A stretch of 64,000 nucleotides of DNA, taken from assembly GCA_029056055.1 (NCBI GenBank), contig JAIDCC010000098.1, positions 20,321 to 84,320 on the forward strand. The letters are read 5' to 3'. The notes beneath the pieces are model-generated. The model was given only the letters and a program-made list of their open reading frames with translations, did not search any database and was not told the DNA's origin. The translations under genes and the position numbers were made by a program. How positions within the stretch are numbered: the stretch's first letter is position 1; every line of letters begins with the position of its first letter. The stretch is from Duncaniella sp. (lineage in GTDB: Bacteria; Bacteroidota; Bacteroidia; Bacteroidales; Muribaculaceae). Below are positions 61,533-64,000 of this stretch, piece by piece.

Positions 61533-61811
61533 ATGAAAATCGACAACATAAACATGACGCTTAAAGAGGATATGATTGCCACCTTGCGCTCCGGCTCAAA
61601 GGTGTCTATCGCTGCGTCGAGTTTTTCAGTCTATGCTTTCCAGAAGCTAAAAGAGCGGTTGATTGATATTTCGAAACTGCGTTTTATCCTCACCTTCCCT
61701 TCTTTCATAACTGAAAATGCCGCCAAGCAAAAGTGTGAGTTCTACATTCCGAGGCTCAACCGTGAGCATTTCTTAGAACTACAACAATTGAAAGGAGGGC
61801 TCAATGGCTGA
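61533..61811 (+). pseudogene. Truncated ORF resembling the N-terminus of PLD/SNF2-type helicases found near DNA methyltransferases
   Basis: MTLKEDMIATLRSGSKVSIAASSFSVYAFQKLKERLIDISKLRFILTFPSF...EFYIPRLNRE resembles the start of a much longer helicase family, then ends after FLELQQLKGGLNG. Assigned from memory of the family. Confidence 0.5.
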
Positions 61812-61902
61812 CCGGCATCAATTCCGCGCCAAATGGCATGACTACAATACAGGATTGTATTTCGTCACGATATGCACGCACGAAAAACGCCACCTTTTCG
61901 GA

Positions 61903-61923
61903 CGGATTGTGTCCGACAATCCG
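61903..61923. repeat. Hairpin inside RAYT coding sequence
   Basis: CGGATTGT-GTCCG-ACAATCCG, 8-bp stem. Confidence 0.7.
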
Positions 61924-61927
61924 GAAG

Positions 61928-61947
61928 GGACGCGATTCATCGCGTCC
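61928..61947. repeat. REP-like palindrome in RAYT coding sequence
   Basis: GGACGCGAT-TC-ATCGCGTCC, 9-bp arms and 2-nt centre. Confidence 0.8.
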
Positions 61948-62058
61948 GCATTAGGCGAGATTGTGGACGGATGTATCAAAAAGATACCCGACATTCATCC
62001 GGATGTGGAAGTTTGTAATTACGTCGTCATGCCCAATCACATCCACATGGTGTTATCG

Positions 62059-62085
62059 GTAGGGGCGCAATACATTGCGCCCGCG
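62059..62085. repeat. REP-like element, arm 1 of a 27-bp inverted repeat
   Basis: GTAGGGGCGCAATACATTGCGCCCGCG; reverse complement found exactly at 62219-62245. Confidence 0.9.
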
Positions 62086-62218
62086 GCGACGGAAGGTATT
62101 TTTCGTAACACAGGCTGTCTGAAACCGCCAATGCGCGGTGACCCTGTCGAAGATAATCATTTCAATTCGCGTCTTGCAGTAGTAATTCGGACGTTCAAAG
62201 CCGCTGTCACAAGAGAGG

Positions 62219-62245
62219 CGCGGGCGCAATGTATTGCGCCCCTAC
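62219..62245. repeat. REP-like element, arm 2 of a 27-bp inverted repeat
   Basis: CGCGGGCGCAATGTATTGCGCCCCTAC, exact reverse complement of 62059-62085. Confidence 0.9.
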
Positions 62246-62456
62246 AGGTTTGGCAACGTAGCTTTCACGAACATATCATTCGTGAGCAACATGCGTTTGA
62301 AAACATCATGAACTACGTCGATACTAACGCTGAAAATTGGAACATGGATTGTTTTTTAATCAGTAAGTGAGAAAATAAAAGAACAAGTTTTATTGTTCAA
62401 GAATTTTTCATCACATATATCGTTTTATTTTTAGAACATACTGAAACTTTTTAATA

Positions 62457-64000
62457 ATGGATAAACTCAAAATGTCATCCCGCGATGCTGTTGAGAGTAA
62501 TGTGGCGAAGATTGCCGCGTTGTTTCCCCACTGCGTCACGGAATGTAAACCCAAGTTAATCGGGGGGGGGAGTAATTCGCTGACTATCAGGATAGATTGG
62601 GATAAATTGCGAGCTGAGCTCGACCCCGACCTCATCCTCGAGGGTGAAGAACGCTATCAGTTCACATGGCCCGACAAACGCGAGGCGTCGCGTCTCGCCA
62701 ATACCCCGACCGACAAGACCCTTCGCCCGGATGTCGATGCATCAAAAGATTTCTGGAACACAGAAAATCTCTACATCGAAGGAGATAACCTTGACGTGCT
62801 GAAAGTTCTCCGCGAGAACTATCTCGGCAAAATCAAGATGATTTACATTGACCCGCCTTACAACACCGGCAATGACTTTGTCTACAGTGACAAGTTTGCA
62901 ATGAGTAGTGAGGAGTGGTGTGAGCAGAGTGGAGCTTTCGACGAGGATGGCAACCAAGTTGTCGACCCCATGCAGCGCAACACCGAAAGCAACGGTCGTT
63001 TCCACACCGACTGGCTCAATATGATATACCCTCGTCTGAAAGTGGCCCGCGAGTTGCTCACCAACGATGGTGTTATATTCATTTCAATGGACGATAATGA
63101 AGCCAAAAATCTTAAGGCAGTCTGCGATGAAATTTTTGGGATTCAAAACTTCCTTGCTCAGGTTGTTTGGGAACGTTCTTTTTCTCCAATAAACTTAATG
63201 AAACACTTTTCGCCATCACATGATTATATTCTTGTGTATGCTAAAAATCAAGAAGTTGCAAAGTGTTTTGGCATTCCACGTTCAGAAGAAGCAGATAATC
63301 GCTACTCCAATCCAGACAATGATCCTCGTGGGCCATGGATGTCAAGCGATATTTCAGTAGGCCCTGCAATTGATGCGAATATTTATCCTATAACTACGCC
63401 CTCCGGGCGAATAGTAGAGCCTCCAGCTGCGCGCAGCTGGAGTCTCTCGCGGAACGCGTTCCGCGAGAGACTCCAAGACAATCGTATTTGGTTCGGCCCA
63501 AACGGCGATGGAGTGCCTCGCATAAAACGTTTTCGTTCAGAACTTCGTAAGACAGGTATTACTCCAATGACTATTTGGAAATATACCGAAGTTGACCACT
63601 CTCAAGCTGCTACTCAAAAGTTGGCAAAACTTTTTGATGGAAAAAAATACTTCGACTATCCTAAGCCGGTTGAACTTCTGAAACGCTGTCTCGCTCTTTA
63701 TACTGCACCTGAGGACTGCATCGTTCTTGACTTCTTTAGTGGTAGTGGCACATTCGCACAGGCAGTAATGGAGCTTAACGCGGCCGATGGTGGAACACGA
63801 AAATATATCTTGGTGCAAGCACCAGAGAAGATGGAAAATCCTGCAAATGTAGAATTGACCTTTGAAACAATCCCTCAATTTGCTGAAGAACGCATCCGTC
63901 GTGCCGGGGAGCAAATTTGTAGGGAGGGTGTTGCAGAACTACCCTTAATGAAGGCCTCTGAGAATTGCATATTTTGGCCCAAAATTAGATTTTTTAGTTT
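62457..64000 (+). CDS. mod: Beta-class DNA methyltransferase, type III Mod-like; 3' end beyond the window
   Basis: Hand translation from ATG 62457 is open to the window end; MIYIDPPYNTGNDF (DPPY) precedes LDFFSGSGTFAQAVMELN (FxGxG). Missing from the ORF track because no stop lies in the window. Confidence 0.9.
   Translation, partial: MDKLKMSSRDAVESNVAKIAALFPHCVTECKPKLIGGGSNSLTIRIDWDKLRAELDPDLILEGEERYQFTWPDKREASRLANTPTDKTLRPDVDASKDFWNTENLYIEGDNLDVLKVLRENYLGKIKMIYIDPPYNTGNDFVYSDKFAMSSEEWCEQSGAFDEDGNQVVDPMQRNTESNGRFHTDWLNMIYPRLKVARELLTNDGVIFISMDDNEAKNLKAVCDEIFGIQNFLAQVVWERSFSPINLMKHFSPSHDYILVYAKNQEVAKCFGIPRSEEADNRYSNPDNDPRGPWMSSDISVGPAIDANIYPITTPSGRIVEPPAARSWSLSRNAFRERLQDNRIWFGPNGDGVPRIKRFRSELRKTGITPMTIWKYTEVDHSQAATQKLAKLFDGKKYFDYPKPVELLKRCLALYTAPEDCIVLDFFSGSGTFAQAVMELNAADGGTRKYILVQAPEKMENPANVELTFETIPQFAEERIRRAGEQICREGVAELPLMKASENCIFWPKIRFFS
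62562..62570 (+). repeat. Homopolymeric G9 tract in the 5' part of mod
   Basis: ...TTA ATC GGG GGG GGG AGT AAT..., in frame as Gly-Gly-Gly. Confidence 0.95.
63421..63442. repeat. 22-bp perfect palindrome in mod coding sequence
   Basis: CTCCAGCTGCGCGCAGCTGGAG. Confidence 0.95.
63438..63475. repeat. 38-bp perfect palindrome in mod coding sequence
   Basis: TGGAGTCTCTCGCGGAACGCGTTCCGCGAGAGACTCCA. Confidence 0.95.

Follow-up and report, generated by a model that had tools for sequence, protein, structure and literature searches.

Does a run of nine guanines, lying shortly past the start codon of a DNA methyltransferase gene in a Duncaniella genome, act as a switch that turns a restriction-modification (R-M) system on and off? 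The gene sits at the end of contig C128 (positions 20321-84320 of 84320) in a genome of 2.88 Mb and 129 contigs (G000), and the whole 64,000-nucleotide stretch that was analysed is called the window below. The features on which the question turns are these.

62457..63925, plus strand: 5' part of the gene for a type III Mod N6-adenine methyltransferase, ~490 codons, with the rest on contig C12
62562..62570, plus strand: G9 tract, 105 nt past the ATG (62457) of mod; G6, G9 and G12 are ON lengths, other lengths OFF
62571..62583, plus strand: stop codons in both alternative frames (GAG TAA; GTA ATT CGC TGA), by direct reading
62850..62861, plus strand: DPPY catalytic motif, downstream of the G9 tract, from sequence and translation
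63735..63749, plus strand: FSGSG AdoMet-binding motif, from sequence and from alignment to 6k0w and EcoP15I Mod

A sequence-only reading had described the gene as a type III Mod-like methyltransferase, and this was borne out by matches to Pfam N6_N4_Mtase (8.5e-38) and PADLOC MTase_III (7.9e-178), as well as to the PDB structures of Mod 6k0w (3.8e-77) and EcoP15I Mod (8.7e-53). The motif order, DPPY before FSGSG, is that of type III Mod proteins (FxGxG). Contig C12 is tied to the window mod because its first 74 bp are identical to window positions 63852-63925, and the joined frame gives a Mod of 655 aa. Downstream of mod, a 1024-aa open reading frame (C12 845-3916) encodes Res with ResIII and RE_endonuc domains (REase_III 4.3e-288), and the mod-res order is kept in the related genomes G020, G021, G041 and G389. 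Read from these sequences, the locus is a complete type III R-M system, in which mod is split over the window contig and C12 while res is intact. Two adjoining near-perfect palindromes were also seen within mod at 63416-63475; their core, GAGTCTCTCGCGGAACGCGTTCCGCGAGAGACTC, codes for the conserved Mod stretch WSLSRNAFRERL and is base-identical in G256 and G229 though nearby third positions vary.

The tract reads in frame as ATC GGG GGG GGG AGT, exactly as had been claimed, and the earlier hand translations of the G8 and G10 forms proved correct, with translation ending at 41 and 39 aa, well short of DPPY. By frame analysis the frame stays open with G6, G9 and G12, while G7, G8, G10 and G11 yield products of 38-42 aa. 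The stops in both alternative frames make for a tight OFF state, and since DPPY starts at 62850, beyond every OFF stop, the OFF products are without the catalytic domain. What was found is a simple sequence repeat (SSR) in the 5' coding region that sets the reading frame. The frame had furthermore been described as open to the window end with G9; literally it is, but mod sequence stops at about 63925 and the remainder, where the contig also ends, belongs to another element.

63924..64000, plus strand: IS-like repeat end of 77 bp (GAGGGTGTTGCAG...), interrupting mod in C128 and not itself mod sequence

The last ~25 codons of the window frame are this repeat, and 76-77 bp identical to it also terminate contigs C15 and C129. 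It interrupts mod beside the palindrome GGACGCGATTAATCGCGTCC; the uninterrupted junction of mod is on C12. By its sequence the repeat resembles an insertion-sequence end that has landed in mod near codon 490. Interrupted and uninterrupted forms of mod both occur in the assembly, and it appears that part of the population, or the whole strain, carries the interruption. A plasmid search with the IS-like end gave no match, and other genomes hold partial copies of it only. On the other side of mod, two further elements lie before the start codon.

61804..62370, plus strand: RAYT-like (REP-associated Y1) transposase gene (NCBIfam REP_Tyr_transpos 1.7e-12, under the curated cut-off)
62377..62442, plus strand: 66-bp dispersed repeat, 14 nt upstream of the mod ATG, with ~40 genome copies, mostly at 90-97% identity

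The 66-bp repeat is AT-rich and has an inverted repeat, GAACAAGTTTTATTGTTC. Several of its copies directly precede start codons, as does the copy before mod, and the repeat may act as a mobile element that brings along a promoter or leader, perhaps that of mod. In G389, too, a RAYT-like gene is found directly upstream of mod. The RAYT-like gene of the window contains perfect 27-nt inverted repeats, GTAGGGGCGCAATACATTGCGCCCGCG, inside its own reading frame, and palindromes resembling them occur elsewhere in the genome, on C12 and C129.

Could a run of this length be a matter of chance? Among the G and C runs of the 64-kb window none is 7 or 8 long, and the G9 tract is the sole one above 6; runs of at least 9 are expected at ~0.05-0.2 per 64 kb, the author's own estimate extrapolated from run-length counts in the window. 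GGG is rare among the glycine codons here (9.8%), so that codon usage gives GGG-GGG-GGG a probability of ~0.001. The length of the tract by itself is only mildly surprising, and it is the comparison with homologues that carries the non-chance case. In G000 as a whole there are ~16 sites with runs of G9 or longer, and a reading of this genome as a general poly-G contingency genome is not clear, most of these sites being intergenic or at contig ends rich in GC. A second intragenic G9, a further switch candidate, was observed at C15:25193-25201 (L048:3194-3202), where it splits a gene with membrane and sulfatase domains (phosphoethanolamine-transferase-like); the two halves do not share a frame, as would be expected of an OFF phase, and for this sulfatase-type gene no homologue was found in the genus at the threshold used.

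Relatives were compared in two sets with one genome per species, 27 genomes for the genus and 397 for the family. Three other genomes of the genus carry a mod homologue: in G020 (G9, ON) and G021 (G10, OFF) the tract stands at the window's site, and the more distant homologue of G007 (46%) is without it. In the Muribaculaceae a homologue is present in 66 of the 397 genomes, and 53 homologues were read at sequence level. A run of at least seven G (G7-G10) lies within the first 150 nt of seven of the 53 (7.95 kb), the other 46 being without a tract, versus no G or C run of seven or more over the 83.8 kb of mod sequence beyond that point. The Poisson P of this 5' enrichment is ~1e-11, or 3e-6 when only 4 tracts are counted, and because of this distribution the tract is judged not to be due to chance. 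Beyond the genus, G041 (G9), G372 (G8) and G120 (G8) are ON, while G377 (G7; G8 would be ON) and Prevotella sp. 885 (G7) join G021 as OFF, these OFF alleles being read from MAG or draft consensus with a one-base error possible. When 85,462 species genomes were scanned for the pattern, the Prevotella gene was the one additional Bacteroidales mod from beyond the family, and Duncaniella, bank-vole-MAG and roe-deer Muribaculaceae cases were matched as well. With the window included, five of the eight tract-bearing alleles are ON and three OFF, and each has an early stop in both off-frames. Between species the tract is thus polymorphic in length, as G7, G8, G9 and G10, and relatives carry both ON and OFF alleles. 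A phage origin of the tract was considered and is unsupported: none of 35 Mod relatives on viral contigs of IMG/VR has a G tract at this position, and the lone viral pattern match is not a mod.

It could be argued that the lengths are consensus errors, or that the OFF alleles are pseudogenes in ordinary decay, since homopolymers are error-prone, MAG or draft assemblies are the source of the OFF alleles, and the window mod has also been struck by the IS-like element. However, the tract occupies one site across several independent assemblies and has counterparts in at least six other genomes, so that sequencing error, whose exclusion the sequence-only reading had called for, is an unlikely source of it. 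Both G021 and G377 remain open for more than 600 codons past the tract with no other sign of decay, and the lack of G or C runs in the 84 kb of downstream mod sequence also speaks against error or decay, which we consider quite improbable.

The surroundings of the tract bear on another reading, that the G run is an invariant codon choice for Gly-Gly-Gly in a fixed linker. In its favour, Gly-Gly-Gly is encoded at the tract in every ON allele of the G000/G020/G041 type, in a linker that precedes the catalytic domain. A special linker (..EC...G tract...IDWDKL) replaces the usual VTERLNKDGKPELAIDFDKLRAEL in G000, G020, G021, G041 and G377. Against an invariant linker, GGG is a rare choice of glycine codon; most homologues have ERLNKDGKPELA at this site and are without a Gly run; and G389 keeps the special linker without the G tract, with ACGGGGACTACC in its place. 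Furthermore, out-of-frame lengths occur in three species, and the run of G120 sits elsewhere, as a G8 tract 32 nt into mod, in frame, where nearby lengths stop at 32 aa or fewer. The G120 tract is taken to be independent of the others, and in G372 the tract is found in a gene of the IDFDKL type. The fixed linker is largely refuted and seems exceedingly improbable. Homopolymer runs can also promote slippage, and Mod dosage might be tuned at the G run by programmed frameshifting or by transcriptional slippage, in place of genetic switching, in which case some Mod would be made from OFF alleles. The window allele, however, is in frame and needs no frameshift, and in-frame and out-of-frame lengths are found among species instead of a single conserved frameshifted arrangement; such tuning is accordingly held to be very improbable.

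Weighing these readings, we regard a phase-variable type III R-M system, turned ON and OFF by the length of its poly-G tract, as very probable from the sequences compared. Weighing against it are the 46 of 53 homologues that have no tract, a run of nine bases that is rather short, the genes for MutS and MutL, which would be expected to slow slippage, the MAG or draft origin of the OFF alleles, and the IS-like interruption of mod. Slippage in the G tract is the simplest account of how full Mod would be switched on and off. In the proposed mechanism, slipped-strand errors in the 5' G tract of mod would alter its length by one base or more; lengths divisible by three would give the full 655-aa Mod (ON), and other lengths a product of ~40 aa that ends before the catalytic motifs (OFF). 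In the ON state Mod would methylate adenine at its own site, and together with the Res encoded downstream it would allow unmodified DNA to be restricted. In the OFF state methylation would be lost and Res would be idle, a loss that should not be lethal because Res in known type III systems needs Mod. This dependence, which makes the OFF state harmless, is established for EcoP15I-type enzymes. A clone would then be a mix of cells that differ in methylation and restriction. The genome has genes for MutS and MutL and the tract is short, at nine bases, and therefore switching is perhaps slow; it may be modest rather than very fast. The earlier claim of an epigenetic switch in a Bacteroidales commensal stands in part: the type III Mod, the lineage and a poly-G tract of contingency type, ON in some species and OFF in others, are borne out, and the claim is largely right as far as a phase-variable type III Mod, while switching inside one clone, phage protection and altered gene expression are what we infer.

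Does the switch travel with one specificity? Tract-bearing homologues share mostly 70-97% identity with the window Mod in the N- and C-terminal bins, versus 10-35% in the central recognition region, so that multiple recognition-domain alleles are carried on a conserved scaffold. G256, which is without the tract, is 80-100% identical to the window's recognition region; tract and recognition domain therefore assort independently, and this assortment, as seen in the sequences, points to recombination. The Mod core tree has little resolution, 22 of its 55 inner branches being open, and its well-supported part requires five or more changes in tract state, so that the tract may go back to a single origin or to repeated gain or recombination. 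A wider proposal, which is offered tentatively and is on balance rather doubtful, is that type III mods of the Muribaculaceae share an epigenetic switch, a poly-G cassette at their N-terminal linker that has been gained or transferred again and again and moves across differing recognition domains; clonal gut populations would then vary in their methylation and phage sensitivity despite intact mismatch repair.

Known systems offer several likenesses. The design of modH in Helicobacter pylori is the same: a poly-G tract in the coding sequence of a type III mod, at lengths of roughly 8-15, gives ON or OFF among strains, with many recognition-domain alleles and a res partner (PMC3230613). In contrast, the tract of the Muribaculaceae is shorter (7-10), MutS and MutL are present, and switching and a regulon are putative. 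H. pylori is not known to have a MutS1/MutL system. Haemophilus and Neisseria modA, Moraxella modM and Streptococcus suis modS are likewise SSR-driven ON/OFF type III mods with differing recognition-domain alleles, but they are other genes, in unrelated bacteria, and not driven by a mononucleotide G run. Their repeats have mostly longer repeat units. Across REBASE, 17.4% of type III mods carry SSRs, and variable DNA methylation is already known in Bacteroidales from the invertible type I hsdS genes of Bacteroides fragilis and others (PMC7394358); the hsdS systems, however, invert the DNA of the specificity gene, whereas here slippage would act in a type III mod. The precedent of type III modA, modH and modS (PMC3230613, PMC8125046), and a pattern of variable recognition-domain alleles that matches known phasevarion mods, would suit a true phasevarion, in which ON and OFF cells differ through methylation in the expression of many host genes and selection acts on that regulation. 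Yet a 2025 review finds the link from methylation to regulation generally not clearly demonstrated, with phage resistance perhaps the driver (PMC11868660), and res is intact at this locus, so restriction alone could account for selection; regulation as the selected trait is a possibility to which we give somewhat less than an even chance.

A literature search with incomplete journal coverage returned no report of such a switch in Duncaniella or Muribaculaceae. The kind of system is already known; new, as far as the search reached, are the lineage and the conservation of the tract across Muribaculaceae species. Pathogens have been the main subject of work on SSR-driven methyltransferase switching, which here would concern abundant gut commensals, the Muribaculaceae being a dominant family of the mouse gut. 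In this family, mod genes annotated as pseudogenes may be OFF phases. With a conserved frame-switching tract one could ask, using mouse models and mouse metagenomes already available, whether ON or OFF states are selected by phage pressure or by host niche.
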